Part shown: one piece after another, positions 14,960-44,227 of the stretch
Layout of the letters: every line of letters starts with the position of its first letter
How positions within the stretch are numbered: position 1 is the stretch's first letter
Assembly: GCF_030142155.1 (NCBI RefSeq)
Contig: NZ_CP126247.1
Span: forward strand, 2,728,001-2,792,000
Direction of reading: 5' to 3'
DNA: 64,000 nt
Origin: Arthrobacter sp. zg-Y820
GTDB lineage: Bacteria; Actinomycetota; Actinomycetes; Actinomycetales; Micrococcaceae
The notes under the pieces: model-generated
The model's input: the letters and a program-made list of their open reading frames with translations, nothing else
What the model was told of the DNA's origin: nothing
The model's database searches: none
Position numbers and translations under genes: made by a program

Positions 14960-15832
14960 TCAGATGTCGTGTGCCGTCCGCACCGCGGAGGTGGCCCGCG
15001 GGCGGCCGTTGAGGTCAGTGTGTGTCGCCACGTCCTGCCAGCACGGCTGCGCTGCCAGCAGGGCAGCAATCCGCTCGGCCTGGACCTCGGCATGTTCCAT
15101 CACAAAGTATCCGGAGGTGCGCAGCAGCCGGGCAGCGGTGCCGGCGGCGGCCAGCGGCAGTTCCAGTCCGTCCCGGCCGCCGCCGTACAGCGCCATGGCC
15201 GGATCGTGCTCGGCGGCCTCGGGCTCATTGGGAACCGCGTCCGCGGGCACATACGGCGGGTTGGAAACCACCACATCGAACGTTCCGTCGGAGTCCGCCA
15301 GGGCGGTGCGCAGGTCGTCGTGGAGAAGGTGCACCCCCAGCGGCTCGAGGTTCCGCCGGGCCCAGGCCAACGCCAGCGGGCTCAGTTCGACGGCGTACAC
15401 CTCGGCTTCCGGAACCTCGGTGGCCAGCGACGCGGCAATGGCACCGGATCCGGTGCCCAGGTCCACTGCCTTGACCGGCGCCTTGCCTTCGGCAGCAATC
15501 CGGCGTGCGGCGTCGATGGCGAGCTGCGCCACGGTCTCGGTCTCGGGCCGCGGCACGAAAACACCCGGCCCGACCATCAGCTCGAGATAGCGGAACGAGG
15601 CGGTGCCGGTCAGATGCTGCAGCGGGACGCGGGACGCACGTTCGGCGACAAGCTCCGCGAAGCCGGGCGGCACGGGTGCGTCGGTGAAGGCCAGCGCCTT
15701 GACCCGGCCGCGGGACTCCCCCAGCAGGTGGGCAGCGAGAAGCTCAGCGTCCACGGCCGGGCTCGGCACGCCGGCACCGGCCAGAATGGCGGCGGCTTCG
15801 CGCAGGGCCGCCGCCAGCGTGGTGGATTCCAT
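14960..15832 (-). CDS. prmC: Peptide chain release factor N5-glutamine methyltransferase
   Basis: PrmC (HemK) methylates the Gln of the GGQ motif of release factors with S-adenosylmethionine. The 290-residue product has an N-terminal helical domain, then the SAM-binding VDLGTGSGAIAASLA (about residues 120-134) and the catalytic VVSNPPYVPADAV near residue 190. It begins 8 bases after prfA, whose product is its substrate, so enzyme and target are co-expressed. Confidence 0.96.
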   Translation of the reverse strand: MESTTLAAALREAAAILAGAGVPSPAVDAELLAAHLLGESRGRVKALAFTDAPVPPGFAELVAERASRVPLQHLTGTASFRYLELMVGPGVFVPRPETETVAQLAIDAARRIAAEGKAPVKAVDLGTGSGAIAASLATEVPEAEVYAVELSPLALAWARRNLEPLGVHLLHDDLRTALADSDGTFDVVVSNPPYVPADAVPNEPEAAEHDPAMALYGGGRDGLELPLAAAGTAARLLRTSGYFVMEHAEVQAERIAALLAAQPCWQDVATHTDLNGRPRATSAVRTAHDI

Positions 15833-15840
15833 GTCGAAGG

Positions 15841-16920
15841 TTAGTTCTCGTCACCGATGGCGTCGAGGCGCGCCTGCTCATCCATTTCGATCGCGGCCTG
15901 CACCACTGCTTCGAGGTCGCCGTTCATCACGGTGTCCAGGTTGTAGGCCTTGTAGCCGGTGCGGTGGTCCACAATCCGGTTTTCCGGGTAGTTGTAGGTG
16001 CGGATGCGCTCGGAACGGTCCATGGTGCGGATCTGGGACTTGCGGATGTCCGAGTTCGCGGCGTCGATCTCAGCCTGCCGGTGGGCCAGGATGCGGGAGC
16101 GGAGCACGCGCATGCCGGCTTCGCGGTTCTGCAGCTGTGACTTCTCATTCTGCATGGCCACCACAATTCCGGTGGGAAGGTGGGTGATGCGCACGGCGGA
16201 GTCGGTGGTGTTGACCGACTGGCCGCCCGGGCCCGAGGACCGGTAAACGTCAATCTTCAGGTCGTTCTGGCTGATCTCGACTTCTTCAGGCTCGTCCACT
16301 TCGGGAAGCACCAGCACGCCGGCGGCCGAGGTGTGGATCCGGCCCTGGGATTCCGTGACCGGAACACGCTGCACCCGGTGGACGCCGCCCTCGTACTTCA
16401 GGCGGGCATAGACGCCTTCGGCCGGGTCGTTGGAGGAACCCTTGATGGCCATGGAGACGTCCTTGTAACCGCCCAGGTCCGACTCCGTGGAGGTGATGAT
16501 TTCAGTCTTCCAGCCCCGGGTCTCGGCGTAGCGGGTGTACATGCGCAGCAGGTCACCGGCGAACAAGGCAGCTTCGTCGCCGCCTTCACCGCCCTTGACC
16601 TCAATGATGACGTCGCGGCCGTCGTTGGGGTCGCGGGGAATCAGCAGCCGGCGCAGCTTCTCCTGGGCCTCGTCGAGCTGCTCCTGAAGGACCGGAACCT
16701 CGGCGGCGAATTCGGGATCGTCAGCTGCCATTTCGGAAGCCGCTGCGAGATCGTCTTCGAGGGCGTGCCACTTGTTGTAGGCGTCCACGATGCGGCTGAG
16801 TTCGGCGTAGCGCCGTCCGAGCCGCCGGGCGAGGCCCTGGTCCGCGTGCACCGCCGGATCGGAAAGCCGCAGCTGCAGCTCTTCGTGCTCATCCAACAGA
16901 CCCTGTATGGACTCAAACAT
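15841..16920 (-). CDS. prfA: Peptide chain release factor 1
   Basis: RF1 ends translation at UAA and UAG. The 359-residue product has the tripeptide anticodon as PVT at residues 187-189 (VPVTESQGR) and the universal GGQ at residues 232-234, the hydrolysis centre in the ribosomal peptidyl-transferase site. Length is normal. The gene follows rho after about 200 bases of non-coding sequence, and prmC comes directly after it. Confidence 0.98.
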
Positions 16921-34921: not shown

Positions 34922-34952
34922 TTGCGGACAACGGGTGCGCTGACGGTATGAT
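34922..34952 (+). promoter_or_regulatory. Predicted promoter of the tetR-led operon
   Basis: TTGCGG (34922-34927) and TATGAT (34947-34952) with 19 bases between. The -10 is good, the -35 is fair and the spacing is slightly long. The operator palindrome begins eight bases after the -10, at the expected transcription start. Confidence 0.5.
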
Positions 34953-34959
34953 CCCACAT

Positions 34960-34973
34960 ACCAACCGGTCGGT
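34960..34973. promoter_or_regulatory. Predicted TetR operator 1
   Basis: ACCAACCGGTCGGT is a 14-base palindrome with a single mismatched pair, centred on ACCGGT. It covers the predicted start of transcription of tetR, where a bound repressor would block it. A near copy lies at 42999-43012 in the promoter of the short-chain dehydrogenase gene. Confidence 0.7.
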
Positions 34974-35040
34974 TCCCGCCGTCGTCCCAGGCGGCGCACC
35001 GCCCGGTACGAGACTCCACGAGAAACACGGAACACCGCGC

Positions 35041-35640
35041 ATGAAGACCATGAACATCAAGGAAGAACTGGCCCGCGTCTCCGTCGAGCTCTTTTCCAGC
35101 CAAGGCTACGCCAAGACCAGCGTGCAGCAGATCGTCGACGCCGCCGGCGTCACCAAGGGCGCGCTCTACCACTACTTCAATTCCAAAGACGACCTGCTGT
35201 TCGACATTTACGACCGGATCCTTACCCTGCAGCACCGCAACCTCGACGAGATTATCGCCCGTGGCCTTCCGGTGGAGCAGACGGTCCGCCTGGTCTGCGA
35301 AGACGTCATCGTCACCTCGATTGAATGGATCCGCGAGGGGTCCGTCTTCTTCCGCTCCCAGCACATGCTCAGCCCCGACCGGATGGAGGCGGTGAAAATC
35401 CGACGGCGCCAGTACGGCGAGGTTTTCGGTTCACTGATCACCCGCGGCCGGGAGGAGGGCACCTTCCGGAACGACATTCCCACCGCAGTCCTCGTTGCCA
35501 ACTTCTTCGCCAACCCGCACTACCTCTCGTTCTGGTACCAGCCCTCCGGGGCGCTGTCCAAACACCAGGTCGCAAAACAGCTGACCGACCTGTACCTCGC
35601 CGGGCTGCGGCCTGCCCCACCGGAAGGATCCGTCGAATGA
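35041..35640 (+). CDS. TetR/AcrR family transcriptional regulator
   Basis: A 199-residue repressor. The N-terminal HTH has SSQGYAKTSVQQIVDAAGVTK (two overlapping parts near residues 17-37) followed by GALYHYFNSKDDLLFDIYDRIL, the classic TetR helix 3-4. The C-terminal part (from about residue 60) binds the inducer, unidentified. I chose ATG 35041 (MKTMNIKEELARV); the alternative ATG three codons later is equally plausible. It overlaps the oxidoreductase gene by four bases. The palindromes described nearby suggest it represses itself and the dehydrogenase/hydratase operon at 41725-42953. Relatives often sense acyl-CoA thioesters. Confidence 0.9.
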   Translation: MKTMNIKEELARVSVELFSSQGYAKTSVQQIVDAAGVTKGALYHYFNSKDDLLFDIYDRILTLQHRNLDEIIARGLPVEQTVRLVCEDVIVTSIEWIREGSVFFRSQHMLSPDRMEAVKIRRRQYGEVFGSLITRGREEGTFRNDIPTAVLVANFFANPHYLSFWYQPSGALSKHQVAKQLTDLYLAGLRPAPPEGSVE

Positions 35641-36611
35641 AGGCCTGGAACGTAGTTACCAATGCCGAGCCGCGCGAGGCCCTGCGCCTGACCGAACAGC
35701 CCTCGCCGGTCGCGGCACCGGGCTGCCTGGTGCTGTCCACCCTGGCAGTGGCACTGAATTTTCCCGACGTGCTGCTGTGCCGCGGGGAATACCAGGAAAA
35801 GCCGCCGCTGCCTTTCGTTCCGGGCATTGAGCTGTGCGGCACCGTCACGGGGATCGGCGACGGCGTCACGGGCTTCCATCTGGGCGACCGCGTCATTGCC
35901 TCGCATCTGGGCGTCATGGCCGAGGAGGTGCAGGTCCCGGCAGCCTCGGCGTTTCCCGCACCGGCCTCCCTCTCCGACGCCGAGGCCGCAGCCCTGTGCA
36001 TTGGTTATCAAACCGGATACTTCGGCCTCCACCGCCGGGCACGGATCGCTCCCGGCGAGACCCTGCTGGTGCATGCTGCAGCAGGCGGAGTCGGCACGGC
36101 AGCGGTCCAGCTCGGCAAGGCGGCGGGAGCCACCGTGATCGGCGTCGTCGGCAACGAGGCCAAGCGCCTGGTGGCACAAGAAGCCGGAGCGGATCTGGTG
36201 GTCAACCGCACCACCGAAGATTTCGTGGAGGTGGTCAAGAGCGCCACCGGCGGGCGGGGCGCTGACGTAATCTACGACCCCGTGGGCGGCGAGACCTTCG
36301 AGCGGTCCACCCGCTGCATCGCCTTTGAAGGCCGGATTGTCGTGGTTGGTTTTGCCGGAGGCACCCTGCAGTCGGCCCGCATGAACCACGCCCTGGTCAA
36401 AAACTACTCCCTGCTGGGCCTGCACTGGGCGCTCTATGCGAAGAATGCGCCGCAGCTGGTCGCCGAAGCGCATGAGCAGCTCACGCTGCTGGCGGACAAG
36501 GGCCTGATCCGTCCGCTGGTCACCGAAATTGTTCCGTTCGAGTCAGCGCCCGACGCCGTGCAGCGCCTCGGCGACGGCCTCACCGCCGGGCGGGTGGTGC
36601 TGACCCGGTAG
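35637..36611 (+). CDS. MDR-superfamily NADPH:quinone oxidoreductase
   Basis: A 324-residue zinc-independent medium-chain dehydrogenase. The N-terminal catalytic domain has NFPDVLLCRGEYQEKPPLPF (about 41-60), GIELCGTVTGIGDGVTGF; the nucleotide domain has LLVHAAAGGVGTAAVQLGKAAGATVIG near residue 142, the AxGGVGxxxxQ dinucleotide motif. There are no structural-zinc cysteines. It reduces quinones or enoyl groups in relatives. The ATG overlaps the tetR stop (ATGA) and AAGGA is upstream, so regulator and enzyme are co-expressed. Confidence 0.9.
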   Translation: MKAWNVVTNAEPREALRLTEQPSPVAAPGCLVLSTLAVALNFPDVLLCRGEYQEKPPLPFVPGIELCGTVTGIGDGVTGFHLGDRVIASHLGVMAEEVQVPAASAFPAPASLSDAEAAALCIGYQTGYFGLHRRARIAPGETLLVHAAAGGVGTAAVQLGKAAGATVIGVVGNEAKRLVAQEAGADLVVNRTTEDFVEVVKSATGGRGADVIYDPVGGETFERSTRCIAFEGRIVVVGFAGGTLQSARMNHALVKNYSLLGLHWALYAKNAPQLVAEAHEQLTLLADKGLIRPLVTEIVPFESAPDAVQRLGDGLTAGRVVLTR

Positions 36612-36735
36612 CCGCTCCGTCCACCGTCCCCTGCCGTCCCCTGTCCGCCGACCACCGTATACCGACCCCGGGTCCTGCCCCACACGCCAAGCGTCGCCGA
36701 GTACCGCACCTCTTCACCGAGACAATGGAGTCCGC

Positions 36736-37530
36736 ATGAACGAGCTACATACCGACCAGTCGGTTTTACCGCCCCGCCTGCGCTTCAACGAGGTCAGCGT
36801 GCGCTTCGGCGGCCTCACGGCGCTGGACGCGGTGTCCCTCGAGGTTCCGGCCGGCACCGTGGTCGGCATCATCGGCCCCAACGGAGCCGGGAAAACAACG
36901 CTGTTCAATGTGGTCTGCGGTTTCAACACGCCCGCTGCAGGTTCCCTGGAGCTCGACGGCGAGGCCTTCCGCCCCAAGCACCACCGTCTTGTCCACCACG
37001 GGGTCTCCCGAACCCTGCAGGGGCTGGGGCTGTTTCCCGGCCTCACCGTGCTGGAGAACGTGATGCTCGGCCTGGAAGTCACCGCGCGGCACAACGCCCT
37101 GCAGGATGCCCTGCTCCTGCCGCGGTCCCGGCACGGCGAGGCGCAGCTGCGGGACCGCGGACTCCGGGCGCTGGATGACCTGGGCATCGTAAACCGGGCG
37201 ACCGCCCTCCCGGACACGCTGCCGTACGGAATCCGCAAGAAGGTGGCGCTGGCACGGGCGCTGGCGGGCGCGCCCCGGCTCCTGCTCCTGGACGAACCCG
37301 CCGGCGGGCTCGCCCACGAGGACATCGAGGAGCTGGCGGAGATCATCCGCAGGATTCCGCAGACCGGCTGCTCAGTGGTGCTTGTGGAACACCATGTGGA
37401 CCTGGTGATGAGTGTCTGCGAGCGCATTGCGGTCCTGGATTTCGGCAAGCTGATCGCCGAGGGAACACCGGCGGAGATCGGCGCCAATCCGGCGGTCACC
37501 GACGCTTATCTGGGGGTGGATCCGGCATGA
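36736..37530 (+). CDS. livG: Branched-chain-type ABC transporter ATP-binding protein LivG
   Basis: A 264-residue ATPase of the HAAT (Liv) importer family. Walker A is GPNGAGKTT at about residues 48-56; the signature is the LivG form (LPYGIRKKVALARAL, near residue 160) and Walker B is LLLLDEPAGGLAHED. GGAG lies before the ATG. It is the first of five overlapping genes livGFHMK. The gap of 124 bases from the oxidoreductase contains no terminator, so read-through from the tetR promoter is possible. The substrate could be a branched or aromatic acid rather than an amino acid. Confidence 0.93.
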   Translation: MNELHTDQSVLPPRLRFNEVSVRFGGLTALDAVSLEVPAGTVVGIIGPNGAGKTTLFNVVCGFNTPAAGSLELDGEAFRPKHHRLVHHGVSRTLQGLGLFPGLTVLENVMLGLEVTARHNALQDALLLPRSRHGEAQLRDRGLRALDDLGIVNRATALPDTLPYGIRKKVALARALAGAPRLLLLDEPAGGLAHEDIEELAEIIRRIPQTGCSVVLVEHHVDLVMSVCERIAVLDFGKLIAEGTPAEIGANPAVTDAYLGVDPA

Positions 37531-38243
37531 GCGATTTGCTGGTCCTGGACTCGGTGAGCGCCGGCTACGGCCCCATTCCCGTGCTGCACGGCGTCAGCCT
37601 CACGGTGGCGGCGGGAAGCATCACCGCCGTCGTCGGCGCCAACGGCGCGGGCAAGACCACCCTGCTGCGCACCGTTGTCGGCCAGCTGCGGCCCACGGGC
37701 GGCAGCATTCACTTCGACGGCGCGGATCTCGCCGCCGTCAAAGTGGAGGACATGGTTCGGCGCGGCATCGCGCTGGTGCCGGAGGGACGCGGAGTCATTA
37801 CCGAGCTCAGCGTGGACGAGAACCTGCGCCTGGGCGGGCTGTGGCGCCGCGACCGGGCCGCCGCCTCCGCCCTGCGTGCCCGGATGTATGAACTCTTCGA
37901 GCCGCTGGACCGCCGCCGCAAGGCTGCCGGGCACCAGCTGTCCGGCGGCGAACGCCAGATGCTCGCCCTCGGCCGGGCACTCATGGCCGGACCCCGCCTG
38001 CTGCTGCTCGATGAACCGTCCCTTGGCCTGGCGCCGCGGATCACGGCCCAGATCCTGGGCCTGCTGCGCAGCTTGCGCGAGGACACCGGCCTGACCGTCC
38101 TCCTGATCGAGCAGAACGTCCGCAGCGCGCTCGCTGTGGCCGACGACGGCGTCGTCCTCAACCTGGGCAGTGTTGTCGCCTCCCGCCCCGCTGCCGACCT
38201 GGCCGCGGATACCGACCTTCGCCACACCTATCTGGGGTTCTGA
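37527..38243 (+). CDS. livF: Branched-chain-type ABC transporter ATP-binding protein LivF
   Basis: A 238-residue ATPase, the second nucleotide-binding subunit. GANGAGKTT at about residues 37-45, LVPEGRGVITELSVDENL near residue 88 (the LivF signature) and LSGGERQMLALGRAL near residue 136 are all present. The ATG overlaps the livG stop by four bases, and the stop overlaps livH by one. Confidence 0.93.
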   Translation: MSDLLVLDSVSAGYGPIPVLHGVSLTVAAGSITAVVGANGAGKTTLLRTVVGQLRPTGGSIHFDGADLAAVKVEDMVRRGIALVPEGRGVITELSVDENLRLGGLWRRDRAAASALRARMYELFEPLDRRRKAAGHQLSGGERQMLALGRALMAGPRLLLLDEPSLGLAPRITAQILGLLRSLREDTGLTVLLIEQNVRSALAVADDGVVLNLGSVVASRPAADLAADTDLRHTYLGF

Positions 38244-39121
38244 TGGACAGATTTCTCTTCCTCACCGTCGACGGCCTGGCGCGCGGCGCCGTGCTGGCTG
38301 CCTTCGCGCTCTCCCTCGTCATCATCTGGCGCGCCGCCCGCATCGTGAACTTCGCGCAGGGTGCCATGGCGGTGGCCACCACCTACGTCGCCTTCACCGT
38401 CACCAGCGCCACCGGCAGCTATTGGCTGGGTCTGGCATCCGCCGTCGTGGCGGGACTGGTCCTGGGCGCCCTGGTCGAGCGGACCGTTATGCGCTTCGTG
38501 GGGAACACCTCCCCGTTGAACTCGGTGATCGCCGGACTGGGGCTGCTGCTGGTGATCCAGGCCGTCCTGGGCATGATCTTCGGAAACGGCTACAAATCGA
38601 TGGCCACGCCGTTCAGCACCTCACCGATCTCCCTGGGCGGCGTCAGCGCCGTCTCCCCCTACGATCTGTTCATCTTCGCCTGCATAGCGGCGATCATGGC
38701 GGGCCTGGCCCTGCTCTTCACGAGGACTTCCCTGGGGCTGCGGCTGCGCGCGGCCGCCTTCGCCCCGGAACTGGCCCGGCTGCTCGGGGTGCGGTCCTCC
38801 CGCATGCTGACCCTGGGCTGGGCGTTGTCCTCCGCGGTCGGAGCACTGGCGGCCCTGCTGATCATCCCCACCGAACTGGGGCTGAACCCGCACGCGGTCG
38901 ACACCGTCTTTGTCTATGCCTTCACCGTCGCCGTGGTGGGCGGGCTGGATTCCGCCGGAGGTGCTGTCGCCGGAGGCCTCGCCGTCGGCGTGGTGCTCAG
39001 CTGGGTCAGCGGCTATCTCGGCGCCACCCTGGCCCCGATCGCCGTGCTGGTGCTTCTTCTGGCCGTGCTGCTCCTGCGCCCTGCCGGACTGTTCTCGATG
39101 ACTAAGGAGCGCACGGTATGA
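38243..39121 (+). CDS. livH: Branched-chain-type ABC transporter permease LivH
   Basis: A 292-residue permease with about eight hydrophobic segments. RIVNFAQGAMAVATTYVAF near residue 34 is the LivH family N-terminal mark (NFAQG). VVGGLDSAGGAVAGGLAVGV near residue 230 is the conserved GG-x-x-x-x-GA loop that contacts the ATPase. The stop overlaps livM (ATGA). Confidence 0.93.
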   Translation: MDRFLFLTVDGLARGAVLAAFALSLVIIWRAARIVNFAQGAMAVATTYVAFTVTSATGSYWLGLASAVVAGLVLGALVERTVMRFVGNTSPLNSVIAGLGLLLVIQAVLGMIFGNGYKSMATPFSTSPISLGGVSAVSPYDLFIFACIAAIMAGLALLFTRTSLGLRLRAAAFAPELARLLGVRSSRMLTLGWALSSAVGALAALLIIPTELGLNPHAVDTVFVYAFTVAVVGGLDSAGGAVAGGLAVGVVLSWVSGYLGATLAPIAVLVLLLAVLLLRPAGLFSMTKERTV

Positions 39122-40323
39122 ACCCTTTCCGCACCCTGCTGATTGCCGCGGCAGCCGCCGGCCTGCTGATTGGGCTGACCTTTGTGGTGGAACCGTACAC
39201 GTCCTACCAGCTGGCCACGGTGTGCGCCTATCTGTGCGCGGTGGCCGGCCTGACCGTACTTACCGGCACCGGCGGCCAGCTCTCCCTGGGGCAGGCGGCG
39301 CTGATGGCCGCCGGCGCGTACGCCTATGCCCTCTCCGCCAACGCCCTGGCCGAGGCCGGGATCGAAGGCCCGCTCCTGCTGCTGGCCCCGCTCGTTGCCG
39401 CCGTGCTGGGCGCCGCGGTGCTGGGCCTGATCATCGGCTGCGCCGCCGGGCGGCTGCACGGTCCCTATCTGGCCGGCTTCACCATGGCGCTGGTCGTGGC
39501 CATTCCGGCGGTCACCAGCACCTTTTCCGGCGTGCTCGGCGGAGATCAGGGACTGTGGATCACGGTGGAAAAGCGCCCGGCTTCGCTGCGCGGCATCGTC
39601 AGCAACGAGCAGTGGCAGTCCTGGCTGGCGATTATCTGCGCCGTCGCCGTCATGGTTGTCCTGAACAACCTGCTGCGCGGACGCTTCGGGCGCCAGCTGC
39701 GGGCGGTGCGCGACAACGACGCAGCCGCTTCCCTCTCCGGCGTCAACGTTGCCCGAACCAAGATCGCGTCCTTCACCGTCAGCGCCGCCGCCGCCGGACT
39801 GGGCGGCGGCCTGCTCGCCTACATCACGCAAAGTGCCAGCCCGGGAGCGTATTCGCTGGTCCTGTCCCTGTACCTGCTGATGGCGGCTGTCATCGGCGGG
39901 ATCGGCTCGCTCACCGGCGCCGTCTGGGGCGCCCTGATCCTGGTGTTCCTGCCCTACTCCATCAATTCCCTCACCGCAGACCTTCCGGTCTCCGCCGACG
40001 TCGCCCAGCGGCTGGACGGAAACCTGGCCATCGCGGTGTTCGGGACTGTCCTGGTGCTGGTGATCCTGCTCGCCCCGCGCGGCCTTCAGGGGCTGCTCTC
40101 CGCAGCCGCCCGCAGGATTCGCGGCCGGCGCTCCCCCGCCGCCGGGCGGCCGTCGTCGTCATCCGCGGCGTCGGCGTCGGCGGGCTTCCCGCACCCCGCC
40201 GACGGCGAAGCTGCTCCCGAAACTTCCGGTGAAGCCTCTTCCGATGTCTCCGGCGCTGCCGGTTCGGCATCGGGTTCCCCTCCCCTGCCAGTGAATCTAT
40301 CCACCACGAAAGGCCAGCAATGA
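39118..40323 (+). CDS. livM: Branched-chain-type ABC transporter permease LivM, with a disordered C-terminal tail
   Basis: A 401-residue permease with about nine hydrophobic segments. GTGGQLSLGQAALMAAGAYAYA near residue 50 and VIGGIGSLTGAVWGALILVFLP near residue 260 are the conserved Liv permease motifs; AVRDNDAAASLSGVNVARTK is the cytoplasmic loop. After about residue 330 comes a tail of about 70 residues rich in Ser, Ala, Pro and Gly, not part of the usual fold. The stop overlaps livK by four bases. Confidence 0.92.
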   Translation: MNPFRTLLIAAAAAGLLIGLTFVVEPYTSYQLATVCAYLCAVAGLTVLTGTGGQLSLGQAALMAAGAYAYALSANALAEAGIEGPLLLLAPLVAAVLGAAVLGLIIGCAAGRLHGPYLAGFTMALVVAIPAVTSTFSGVLGGDQGLWITVEKRPASLRGIVSNEQWQSWLAIICAVAVMVVLNNLLRGRFGRQLRAVRDNDAAASLSGVNVARTKIASFTVSAAAAGLGGGLLAYITQSASPGAYSLVLSLYLLMAAVIGGIGSLTGAVWGALILVFLPYSINSLTADLPVSADVAQRLDGNLAIAVFGTVLVLVILLAPRGLQGLLSAAARRIRGRRSPAAGRPSSSSAASASAGFPHPADGEAAPETSGEASSDVSGAAGSASGSPPLPVNLSTTKGQQ

Positions 40324-41594
40324 CCAGAACCAAGTACACAGTCCTTGCCGCCGCCGTCACGGCGGCCCTCGCCCTGGGCTCCTGCGGGTCCTCAGGGGGC
40401 GGTGAATCCGCCGAGGCCGAAGACGTGCCCGGCATCACCGACACCACCGTCAAGGTGGGAACCCACCAGCCCCTCACCGGCCCCGCCGCCGCCGGCTATG
40501 CCTCCATCTCGCCGGCAACGAAGGCCTACTTCGACTACGTCAACGCCAACGGCGGCGTGCACGGCCGCACCATCGAATACAGCGTCAAGGACGACGGCTA
40601 CAACCCCGCGAACACGCAGAGCGTGGTGCGGGAGCTGGTGCTCCAGGACGAAGTGTTCGCCCTGGTCGGCGGCCTGGGCACACCGCCGCACAGCTCCGTG
40701 CTGGATTTCCTGAACGACAACGAGGTTCCGGACCTCTTTGTCGCCTCGGGCAGCCCGACGTGGAACCAGCCCGAGGAATATCCGTACACCTACGGCTTCA
40801 TGCAGGACTACGACACCGAAGCCAAAGTCCTGGCCACCTACGTGCAGGAGGAGTTTCCGGACGGCACGTACTGCCTCTTCGGGCAGGACGACGATTTCGG
40901 CGCCGATTTCAAGACCGGGCTCGAGTCGGCGCTGGGCAGTGACGGGCTGGCCAGCTCGCAGGTCTACTCCACGGCAAACACCGACGTCGCCGCGCAGATC
41001 AGCGCCCTGCAGGCGGCCGGCTGCGACGTGAACTTCCTGGCCTCGATCAACGGATTCAGCGCCCAGGCCATCGGGACCGCCGCCAAGCTGGGCTACTTTC
41101 CGAAGTGGGCAGCGTCTTCCGCCGGCGGCGACTACAACACCCTGGCCAGCTACCTCGGAGAAAACACCGACAAGCTCCTGGAGGGCTTCATCAGCGCCAA
41201 CTATCTTCCGGCCTACTCCGACGAGACGGACGAGTGGACGGCGAAGTTCTCCGAAATCAACGAGGAATACAACCCCGGGGCGGAGTTCGACGGCAACACC
41301 ATCTTCGGCATGTCAGTGGGCTACCTCTTTGTTGAGGCCTTGAAGGAAGCCGGTGAGAACCCCACCCGGGAGTCGCTGCTGGAGGCGCTCGAATCCGGCA
41401 ACGTCAAGGGCAACGGGCACGTGCCGCTGGGCTTCAGCGCGGACAGCCACGCCGGCTACACCGGCGGAATGATCACGCTCGTCTCCGGCGGCGTGCAGTC
41501 CTACACCGGCACCCCGTACGCGGTTGACGGCGATTCGGTCAGCCCCTACACCGAGGAGCGCCCCGCCATGCCGGCGAACGGCATCCCGCAGTGA
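40320..41594 (+). CDS. livK: Branched-chain-type ABC transporter substrate-binding lipoprotein LivK
   Basis: A 424-residue lipid-anchored binding protein. The signal peptide ends at ALALGSCGS (Cys about residue 22). The mature part has TVKVGTHQPLTGPAAAGYA near residue 42, the type I periplasmic-binding (LivJ/LivK) fold, and FALVGGLGTPPHSSVLDFLN near residue 113. It captures the unknown substrate outside the membrane for LivHM. A terminator lies about 65 bases after its stop, so this is the end of the operon. Confidence 0.93.
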   Translation: MTRTKYTVLAAAVTAALALGSCGSSGGGESAEAEDVPGITDTTVKVGTHQPLTGPAAAGYASISPATKAYFDYVNANGGVHGRTIEYSVKDDGYNPANTQSVVRELVLQDEVFALVGGLGTPPHSSVLDFLNDNEVPDLFVASGSPTWNQPEEYPYTYGFMQDYDTEAKVLATYVQEEFPDGTYCLFGQDDDFGADFKTGLESALGSDGLASSQVYSTANTDVAAQISALQAAGCDVNFLASINGFSAQAIGTAAKLGYFPKWAASSAGGDYNTLASYLGENTDKLLEGFISANYLPAYSDETDEWTAKFSEINEEYNPGAEFDGNTIFGMSVGYLFVEALKEAGENPTRESLLEALESGNVKGNGHVPLGFSADSHAGYTGGMITLVSGGVQSYTGTPYAVDGDSVSPYTEERPAMPANGIPQ

Positions 41595-41657
41595 CCGGAT
41601 CCCTCAGTAACCGAATCCCGAAGTAGTTAGACCCCGACGCAAGGCTCGGCAACCGCC

Positions 41658-41695
41658 AAGGGCCCTGCACATCAACTGATGTGCAGGGCCCTTTC
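41658..41695. terminator. Bidirectional hairpin between livK and maoC
   Basis: An exceptionally long stem, AAGGGCCCTGCACATCA paired with TGATGTGCAGGGCCCTT, ending CCCTTTCGGG. It lies between two convergent genes and probably terminates both, chiefly the plus strand; the T-run is short. Confidence 0.8.
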
Positions 41696-41724
41696 GGGCT
41701 GATCGAACCCCTTCGCCGGCGGCG

Positions 41725-42177
41725 TCAGGCCATGACGTACAGGGAAATGGACTCGGCAACCGCTGCCGGCTTGTCCGCCCCCTCCAGCTCCACGGTGACG
41801 TTGGAGATGACTCGGACACCCGCAGGGGTGATGTCCACCTTGGCCAGCTCGGACACCGTCCGCACCCGGCTGTTCACGCGCACCGGATGGGGAAAGCGCA
41901 CGCGGTCCAGCCCGTAGTTGATGCCCATGACCGTCCCGTCCACGCTCATCCGGCCGGAGGCGAGCGCCGGCAGCAGCGAGAGGATCAGGAAGCCGTGCGC
42001 GATGGTGGCCCCGAAGGGCCCCGCCGCGGCGCGCTCGGGATCGGTGTGGATCCACTGATGGTCATCGGTTGCGTCGGCGAACCGGTCGATGCGGTCCTGG
42101 TCGATGGTGATCCAGTCGCTGGTCTCCCGCGATCCAACCGCGGCTTCCAGCTCATCCACAGAAGCAAAGTGTGCCAT
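41725..42177 (-). CDS. MaoC-family (R)-specific enoyl-CoA hydratase
   Basis: A 150-residue hot-dog-fold hydratase acting on enoyl-CoA. The catalytic pair is in FADATDDHQWIHTDPERA near residues 50-67 (Asp and His separated by the family's usual five residues), followed by ATIAHGFLILSLLPAL. It begins two bases after the dehydrogenase gene with GAGGGG just upstream, so both are translated from one mRNA. Hydratase plus ketoreductase is the usual pair for beta-oxidation or polyhydroxyalkanoate-type steps. Confidence 0.9.
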   Translation of the reverse strand: MAHFASVDELEAAVGSRETSDWITIDQDRIDRFADATDDHQWIHTDPERAAAGPFGATIAHGFLILSLLPALASGRMSVDGTVMGINYGLDRVRFPHPVRVNSRVRTVSELAKVDITPAGVRVISNVTVELEGADKPAAVAESISLYVMA

Positions 42178-42179
42178 GG

Positions 42180-42953
42180 TCAGCCCCTCGGTCCGCCGGC
42201 GACGTACAACACCTGTCCGGAGACAAAGGATGCTTCCTCCCGGATGAAGAACGACGCCGCCGCGGCGATGTCGGCGGGCCGGCCCGCCCGCCCCACGGGA
42301 ATGTCGGCGGCTGCCTGCCGGATGAACTCCTCATAGGGAACACCGACGCGGTCCGCCGTAGCCCGGGTCATGGCGGTTTCGATCAGCCCGGGGGCGATGG
42401 CGTTGACCGTCACGTTGTAGCGGCCCAGTTCGACGGCGAGGGTCTTGGTGAACCCCTGCAGCCCCGCCTTGGCGGCGGCGTAGTTGGCCTGGCCGCGGTT
42501 GCCCAGCGCCGAGGTGCTGGACAGGTTGACGATGCGGCCCCATTTTTCCCGCACCTGGTGGACCTGCACCGCACGGCTCATCAGGAATGCCCCGCGCAGG
42601 TGCACGCTCATGACCGCATCCCAGTCCGTGTCGGTCATTTTGAACAGCAGGTTGTCCCGCAGGATCCCCGCGTTGTTGACCAGGATGGTGGGTGCGCCCA
42701 GCTCCTCGGCGATGCGCGCCACCGCGGAGTCCACGGCGGCGGCATCGGAAACGTCGGCTCCCACCCCCACCGCCTTGCCGCCGGAGTTGTTAATGGCCTC
42801 AACCGTGCCCGCGGTGTCCTCTTCGCGGAGGTCAAGGACGGCAACGCGGTGGCCGTCGGCGGCGAGCCGGGACGCGATGGCGGCGCCGATGCCGCGGCCC
42901 GCTCCCGTGACGACGGCGGTGCGCTGTTCAGGTGGTGCCGGAAACTCGGTCAT
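42180..42953 (-). CDS. Short-chain dehydrogenase, FabG-like 3-oxoacyl-ACP/CoA reductase
   Basis: A 257-residue SDR. VVTGAGRGIGAAIASRL near residues 14-30 is the Rossmann motif, NNAGI near residue 93 and YAAAKAGLQGFTKTLAVEL (Tyr and Lys of the active site) near residue 158. The ATG at 42953 was chosen because its upstream region holds the predicted promoter (42994-43022) and the extension is of unlikely composition. It probably reduces or oxidizes a 3-hydroxyacyl/3-oxoacyl-CoA. Confidence 0.91.
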   Translation of the reverse strand: MTEFPAPPEQRTAVVTGAGRGIGAAIASRLAADGHRVAVLDLREEDTAGTVEAINNSGGKAVGVGADVSDAAAVDSAVARIAEELGAPTILVNNAGILRDNLLFKMTDTDWDAVMSVHLRGAFLMSRAVQVHQVREKWGRIVNLSSTSALGNRGQANYAAAKAGLQGFTKTLAVELGRYNVTVNAIAPGLIETAMTRATADRVGVPYEEFIRQAAADIPVGRAGRPADIAAAASFFIREEASFVSGQVLYVAGGPRG

Positions 42954-42993
42954 GGCTCTCCTTCGAGCTGAAGCTGGATTCTGTCGTCCGCCG

Positions 42994-43022
42994 AGCGTAC
43001 CGACCGGGCGGTACGGGCGCAA
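42994..43022 (-). promoter_or_regulatory. Predicted promoter of the SDR-maoC operon
   Basis: Read on the minus strand, TTGCGC (43022-43017) and TACGCT (42999-42994) are separated by exactly 17 bases. The start codon is at 42953. The palindrome 42999-43012 falls inside the spacer, so binding there would block polymerase. Confidence 0.65.
42999..43012. promoter_or_regulatory. Predicted TetR operator 2
   Basis: ACCGACCGGGCGGT, identical to operator 1 at 12 of 14 positions, both fitting ACCnACCGGnCGGT. It lies within the -35/-10 spacer of the SDR-maoC promoter. Its two non-matching positions are also the places where the palindrome is imperfect. Confidence 0.68.
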
Positions 43023-43222: not shown

Positions 43223-44227
43223 GTGACCATGTTGGAAACCTCAGCACGCCTGCTGCACCTGCTGTCGCTGCTGCAAATGAGGCGGGAGTGGACCGGCGCC
43301 GCGCTGGCGGAACGGATGACGGTCACCGAACGGACGGTCCGCCGCGACATCAGCAAGCTGCGCAGCCTGGGCTATCCGATCTCGGCGTCCCCGGGCATTG
43401 CCGGCGGCTATCAGCTCGGGTCCGGAGCCCAGCTGCCGCCGCTGCTGCTCGACGACGACGAAGCGCTCGCCGTCGCCCTCGGACTGGCCGCCGTCGCCAC
43501 CGGCCCGGTCGCCGGCATCGGCGAAGCTTCGGTCCGTGCCCTGGCCAAGCTGGAACAGGTGCTGCCGGGCCGCCTGCGGCCCAAGTTTTCCGCGCTCCGC
43601 CAGTCAGTCAGCGTCCTCGCCGGGAACGCCGCGAGTGTTGATCCGCAAACCCTCACGGCCCTCTCCGGAGCCATCGCCGAACAGCGGGTGGTCGCCTTCC
43701 GCTACACCGCCGTCGGCGCCGCCCCGGGACGGCGCCTGGTGGAACCGTACAAGCTGGTCAGCACCGGCCGGCGGTGGTACCTGGCCGCCTGGGACCTGGA
43801 ACGGCAGGACTGGCGGACCTTCCGCATGGACCGCTGCCAGAGCATCCCGGCCGTCCGCGAGCGCTTCTTCCCCCGGCCCCTGCCGGCTAGGGACATGGCC
43901 GCCTACGTGCAGGATTCGATTACCCGCTTTCCGTCCCGGTACGACGTCGTCCTGCGGTTGGCGGCGCCGCTCGCCGATCTGCGGGACCGGATCCCGCCCG
44001 AAGCCGCCACGCTGGAAGCCGACGGTCCGGAATCGACGATCCTGCGGGGCGGCTGGGACTCGCTGGACCTGCCCCTGATGTATCTGGCCGGATTGGGCGT
44101 CGACTTCGAGATCCTGGCGCCTGCCGAAATGCGGGAACAGGCCAGTGCCGCCGCTTCCCTGCTCCTCCGGGCCGCCGCCGTCCAGCCGTCGGCGGAATCC
44201 GGGAAAGCTGCCGGTTCCAGCCACTAG
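43223..44227 (+). CDS. WYL-domain transcriptional regulator (DeoR-type HTH)
   Basis: A 334-residue regulator. The N-terminal HTH has LAERMTVTERTVRRDISKLRSLGYPISA (about residues 28-55) and the ligand-binding WYL domain has RRWYLAAWDLERQDWRTFRMDR near residue 187. The GTG at 43223 is seven bases after GGGAG; the ATG two codons later is too far for that site. It is divergent from the SDR-maoC operon (270 bases apart) and just before hrpA, from which it is separated by 13 bases. Targets unknown. Confidence 0.88.
   Translation: MTMLETSARLLHLLSLLQMRREWTGAALAERMTVTERTVRRDISKLRSLGYPISASPGIAGGYQLGSGAQLPPLLLDDDEALAVALGLAAVATGPVAGIGEASVRALAKLEQVLPGRLRPKFSALRQSVSVLAGNAASVDPQTLTALSGAIAEQRVVAFRYTAVGAAPGRRLVEPYKLVSTGRRWYLAAWDLERQDWRTFRMDRCQSIPAVRERFFPRPLPARDMAAYVQDSITRFPSRYDVVLRLAAPLADLRDRIPPEAATLEADGPESTILRGGWDSLDLPLMYLAGLGVDFEILAPAEMREQASAAASLLLRAAAVQPSAESGKAAGSSH

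Follow-up and report, generated by a model that had tools for sequence, protein, structure and literature searches.

The regulators closest to the one considered here are TetR-type repressors of acyl-type metabolism. PfmR (TTHB023) of Thermus thermophilus HB8 is a self-regulating TetR repressor of acyl-type metabolism genes, with a predicted consensus operator of TACCGACCGNTNGGTN (Agari et al., quoted in PMC7022988); PMC7022988 itself gives a somewhat different selected consensus. PaaR (BCAL0210) of Burkholderia cenocepacia represses the catabolic pathway of a coenzyme A (CoA) thioester, and its operator, ACCGACCGGTCGGT, is placed between the -10 and -35 promoter elements (PMC2770484). The PaaR of Thermus (TTHA0973) recognises a different sequence, AACnAACGTTnGTT (PMC6651687). 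We analysed a 64,000-nucleotide stretch of Arthrobacter sp. zg-Y820 (contig NZ_CP126247.1, positions 2,728,001 to 2,792,000; hereafter the window, within which positions are numbered from 1 unless a genome position is specified) that encodes a TetR protein, a quinone oxidoreductase, the Liv-type transporter LivGFHMK, and an SDR-MaoC enzyme pair. The locus contains three sites, O1, O2, and O3, that resemble the operators of PfmR and PaaR, and on comparative grounds tetR, livGFHMK, and SDR-maoC most likely constitute one local TetR regulon.

The original prediction had described two palindromic 14-mers, at 34960-34973 (ACCAACCGGTCGGT) and 42999-43012 (ACCGACCGGGCGGT), that agree at 12 of 14 positions. 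Both were verified in the window, with these coordinates and sequences, and direct reading showed each to be an imperfect palindrome in which 6 of 7 pairs match. The count of two was too low, however, since a third site is present at 36750-36765. The natural operator unit is 16 base pairs (bp) in length and close to TACCGACCGGTCGGTA. In this form, O1 (TACCAACCGGTCGGTT, 34959-34974, plus strand) is located at the predicted transcription start of tetR, O2 (TACCGACCAGTCGGTT, 36750-36765, plus strand) spans codons 5-10 of livG, and O3 (TACCGACCGGGCGGTA in plus-strand letters, 42998-43013, minus strand) is situated between the -35 and -10 elements of SDR-maoC. When aligned with the PfmR consensus, each site deviates at a single fixed base, namely position 5 in O1 (A for G), position 9 in O2 (A for G), and position 11 in O3 (G for T). 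The resemblance of O3 to the PaaR operator extends to promoter position, as O3 is located in the -35/-10 spacer and differs from the Burkholderia sequence by one base.

The placement of O1 and O3 was assessed by direct reading of the adjacent promoter-like hexamers. Upstream of tetR, on the plus strand, TTGCGG (34922-34927) is separated by 19 bp from TATGAT (34947-34952), and O1 starts 6 bp past this -10-like element. On the basis of that distance, O1 should overlap the expected start of tetR transcription, in agreement with what had been predicted; O1 also follows the -10 element in all ten Arthrobacter loci examined. The motif TTGCG is found 19 bp upstream of the tetR -10 element in the same ten of ten loci, one of which (L026) has TAGGGT as its -10. 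A consensus promoter scan paired CGGACA (34925) with TATGAT at a distance of 16 bp. For SDR-maoC, on the minus strand, TTGCGC (43022-43017) and TACGCT (42999-42994) are separated by 17 bp. The second site had been placed inside this spacer, which is correct for 13 bases of the 14-mer, whereas the remaining one, 42999, belongs to the -10 hexamer as its first base. A TTGC (-35) and a TAnnnT (-10) surround O3 in 20 of 20 SDR loci of the genus; 17 of these were identified by script at the spacing of the window, and three (L118, L120, and L122), in which the spacing is one base longer, were read by eye. The consensus promoter scan of the window listed no SDR-maoC promoter.

To define the distribution of the operator, the 3,792,570-base genome was searched with a strict 15-mer pattern, TACCNACCNGNCGGT, with the reversed pattern serving as the control. 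The strict pattern occurs at three places, which are O1, O2, and O3 only, and the control occurs once. The TetR is encoded in 21 of 29 genomes of the genus, including the genome of the window. Those 29 genomes contain 62 pattern matches, 49 of them within 9 kb of tetR and 13 elsewhere, and the pattern is found near tetR in every one of the 21 TetR-holding genomes (46 matches when those of the window itself are excluded), compared with approximately 0.002 matches expected per 18 kb of genome at the outside rate. Among the eight genomes without the TetR, six have no match and two have one each. A scan of named contigs covered L024-L059 among the 79 loci L024-L102; these contigs share species with the genus set and are not independent of it. 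Where the TetR shows 41-91% identity to that of the window (L024-L053), each of the 30 loci possesses at least one site with ≤3 mismatches, for a total of 64 sites versus 3 for the reversed pattern. A site is also found upstream of tetR or SDR-tetR in 30 of 30, deviating from the palindrome by 1 to 4 mismatches; these positions were hand-picked from the scans, in some cases by taking whichever site close to the gene start matched best. No site with ≤3 mismatches was detected in the six loci with TetR proteins of 25-28% identity (L054-L059). The sites are thus kept both in the genus and in other actinobacterial families, where they accompany the TetR despite differing gene orders. Two of the outcomes named in advance as refuting the regulon, numerous unrelated matches in the genome and a lack of conservation in related species, were therefore not observed with the strict pattern.

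Several observations weigh against a regulon of this kind. With the ideal palindrome and ≤3 mismatches, the genome has 14 matching places versus 17 for the control. When genome positions are ranked against the same palindrome, O3 stands alone at 1 mismatch, but O1 and O2 share the level of 2 mismatches with genome position 3599165, which equals them by this count and is inside an unrelated gene. Matches with ≤2 mismatches number 27 in the window, compared with 13.6 expected, so that loose matches are common. Furthermore, livG is present in the same 21 genus genomes as the TetR (and SDR in 20 of these), and hence no TetR-free liv cluster is available as a control. Two Salinibacterium loci lack O2, and the best E-value among the matches listed in a fold search belongs to DarR, which binds cyclic di-AMP and not an acyl-CoA. 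The abundance of loose matches would fit the explanation that the sites are chance palindromes of a GC-rich genome. Because they are so frequent, however, such matches carry no weight by themselves, and the strict pattern is confined to the cluster. That pattern was derived from the sites themselves, and conservation in relatives is therefore the fair test, which it passed. We consider chance to be an almost negligible explanation, and the earlier argument that this placement is hard to get by chance is upheld by the strict pattern together with the conservation. Additional candidate sites were judged to be chance occurrences. Genome position 3599165 falls within a gene encoding transketolase domains. 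A one-mismatch site at 43325 is inside the gene for a WYL-domain protein, and among nine Arthrobacter relatives it has a counterpart with ≤3 mismatches only in L039 (17170). The three-mismatch sites in L027 (18879), L035 (11755), and L039 (17594) are unexplained and were taken as chance.

The third site, O2, is distinguished by its location within a coding sequence. All 21 livG loci of the genus (20 with an ATG start codon and one with TTG) have O2 at one distance, 14 nucleotides on from the initial base of that codon. Serine codon 9 of livG is TCG in all 21 loci, with TCG usage of 20% in ten cluster genes, livG among them. Where codon 5 encodes histidine, it is CAT in 19 of 19, with CAT usage of 18%. 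The encoded amino acid varies among these loci at codons 5, 8, and 10. The combination of fixed rare codons and amino acid changes points to selection on the DNA, although the genomes are related and the counts are not independent. In the named contigs, O2 is present in 22 of 24 relative loci with a clustered livG, the misses being L032 and L038; a paralogue of 34% identity in L052 was left out. Beyond Arthrobacter and Salinibacterium, a site is located upstream of livG in 13 of 13 loci with a clustered livG, in most cases with a -10-like TAnnGT a few bases further downstream. The consensus promoter scan of the window recognised no separate livG promoter, but it also overlooked the SDR promoter, and so its silence at livG is weak evidence. 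O2 might instead be non-functional, a relic or a coincidence in livG, with liv controlled from the tetR promoter alone or not at all. The position of the site within a reading frame, the missing livG promoter, and the ability of the two Salinibacterium loci to do without it are compatible with this interpretation. The invariant distance from the start codon, the retention of rare codons while other positions vary, and the pre-livG sites of the 13 more distant loci argue against it, with kinship limiting the genus counts, and we regard it as unlikely. As a tentative proposal, rather less probable than the regulon itself, the genus-specific operator within livG may act as an elongation roadblock or by looping together with O1, which would allow tetR-qor (where qor is the quinone oxidoreductase gene) and the transporter to be controlled separately on one transcript and would mean that the N-terminus of LivG has been shaped by a DNA site. 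The proposed local TetR regulon is of an ordinary kind in all but one respect, the fixed position of an operator within livG.

The properties of the TetR protein were compared with those of the described repressors. The sequence scores above the cut-offs of PF00440 and PF17932, and in a search of NCBIfam profiles no model named it above its cut-off. Among 20 TetR orthologues, some of which are cut short at the end, the helix-turn-helix hardly varies, as expected if the orthologues read the same DNA. A structure model (predicted local distance difference test score, pLDDT, of 91.5; predicted template modeling score, pTM, of 0.85) has an all-helical fold for which the best matches are TetR structures. 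Among the 50 fold matches listed, PfmR has the highest template modeling (TM) score (0.87), and AibR bound to isovaleryl-CoA and KstR2 are near. PfmR is near this TetR in fold and has a similar predicted operator, but it shares only 24-26% identity, has other target genes, and occupies the fifth row, not the best, among sequence matches in the PDB. AibR and KstR2, acyl-CoA-type TetR repressors, are similar by fold, and KstR2 also by sequence, but their identity is 20-23%. FadP and LiuQ are comparable by their described role, the TetR control of acyl-CoA degradation genes in the use of fatty acids and branched-chain amino acids, but within the groups studied they are described as confined to betaproteobacteria (PMC5343134). 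The operator raises the question of whether the protein could be PaaR itself, because the same 14-bp operator in the same -10/-35 position is reported for the Burkholderia repressor. PaaR controls phenylacetate genes, however, and a profile search for PF05138 (PaaA/PaaC) found no match in this genome, with controls positive in 4 of 14 genomes; moreover, the strict operator occurs only in this cluster. We therefore rejected the PaaR identity. With no PaaA/PaaC match, it is very improbable that the TetR is a phenylacetate regulator in this genome.

The plus-strand genes of the locus are tetR (35041-35640, encoding TetR_N and TetR_C_24 domains), the gene for a quinone oxidoreductase or zinc-type dehydrogenase (35637-36611, PIG3-like but under the curated cut-off of that family), and the transporter genes for the ABC ATPases LivG (36736-37530) and LivF (37527-38243), the LivH-like (38243-39121) and LivM-like (39118-40323) permeases, and the LivK-like substrate-binding protein (40320-41594, Peripla_BP_6). 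The MaoC-type hydratase (41725-42177) and the FabG-like SDR oxidoreductase (42180-42953) are encoded on the minus strand. The tetR start was assigned to the ATG at 35041, from which the orthologues align. The longest tetR frame begins at an in-frame ATG (34948) within the -10 hexamer, and automatic annotation may thus give a protein that is 31 residues too long. Divergent from SDR-maoC is the WYL-domain regulator gene (43229-44227), with O3 in the shared intergenic stretch.

The nearest named relatives, A. gandavensis and Arthrobacter sp. ATA002, have TetR proteins of 91% identity. In Arthrobacter, the order is O1-tetR-(qor)-O2-livGFHMK, together with O3-SDR-maoC; qor separates tetR from livG in three of nine named relatives, and livG directly follows tetR in the other six. 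O3 is found in all eight named Arthrobacter relatives that have SDR-maoC, and L026 lacks both; in that locus, a DUF808 gene (15542-16567) is located between livK and the WYL gene. Other arrangements are O-SDR-tetR-qor-liv without a second site in the two Salinibacterium loci, O-SDR-tetR-qor-SDR and O-liv in Glycomyces, Phytomonospora, and Leifsonia (there with 4 mismatches at the first site and 3 at O2), and O-tetR-SDR and O-liv in Kineosporia. In some relatives, the candidate operator is also upstream of SDR genes, a phosphotransferase gene, or an acyl-CoA dehydrogenase gene. A Glaciihabitans locus (L034) has it ahead of a phosphotransferase, acyl-CoA dehydrogenase, SDR, and MaoC run, approximately 45 bp upstream of the likely phosphotransferase start (by our own reading), and in Nonomuraea (L053) it is immediately upstream of an acyl-CoA dehydrogenase gene. 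Because a simple gene caller had assigned incorrect frames to some genes of the relatives, the L034 operon was re-read. Genes of APH-family phosphotransferases adjoin the acyl-CoA dehydrogenase gene in L034 (14179-15348) and are located beside the regulon in L037 (17186-18295). The genome of the window has two other loci at which homologues of these two Glaciihabitans proteins, the phosphotransferase and the acyl-CoA dehydrogenase (36-39% identical), are encoded as neighbours, with no strict operator there.

These layouts bear on whether the palindromes are instead bound by a different regulator, for example the WYL-domain protein, with the TetR as a mere neighbour. The WYL gene adjoins O3 and is kept in nine named Arthrobacter loci, which favors this explanation. 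In other families, however, the operators accompany the TetR, whereas stretches of up to ~10 kb on each side contained no WYL homologue; the WYL gene is present in L026, where SDR-maoC and O3 are both absent; and the operator type is that of the TetR repressors PaaR and PfmR. We consider control by the WYL protein or another regulator to be improbable.

The explanation that we favor, and hold to be quite probable as a whole, is that a TetR dimer acts on three operators to repress tetR-qor, liv, and SDR-maoC until released by an acyl-CoA. The encoded TetR would bind the 16-bp palindrome as a dimer at O1, O2, and O3. At O1, over the transcription start, it would repress its own gene and that for the quinone oxidoreductase; at O2, just within livG, it would repress the transporter; and at O3, between the -35 and -10 elements, it would repress SDR-maoC. 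Given that no separate livG promoter was recognised, O2 probably blocks polymerase arriving from the tetR promoter or serves as an auxiliary operator, which is the least certain step. The targets, comprising MaoC, SDR, the quinone oxidoreductase, the acyl-CoA dehydrogenase of relatives, and a Liv-type importer, make an acyl-CoA the likeliest inducer. Most likely, an imported carboxylate would be converted to its acyl-CoA, which would release the TetR, so that uptake and beta-oxidation-like enzymes would be induced together. We infer repression rather than activation, as well as the substrate class. The membership originally proposed, tetR, the quinone oxidoreductase, perhaps livGFHMK, and SDR-MaoC, stands in large part. 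The transporter merits more than that "perhaps" because it has its own site, and the quinone oxidoreductase gene, which overlaps the end of tetR but lacks an operator, belongs by position alone.

In the literature searched, we found no account of this regulon or of its target gene set, nor of the ideal 16-mer. The operator and repressor type are already known; the target gene set differs from that of PaaR. For an uncharacterised TetR that occurs in several actinobacterial families, the findings provide a candidate operator that is specific and can be tested. They also tie a Liv-type transporter to MaoC and SDR enzymes and, in relatives, to a phosphotransferase and an acyl-CoA dehydrogenase, a pair that recalls 4-hydroxy acid use of the ACAD10/11 type (PMC12440821 and PMC11342911), which we take as a lead only; the substrate can be sought through induction. 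Finally, the conserved O2 would offer a clean natural system in which to test repression exerted by a protein from inside a coding region.

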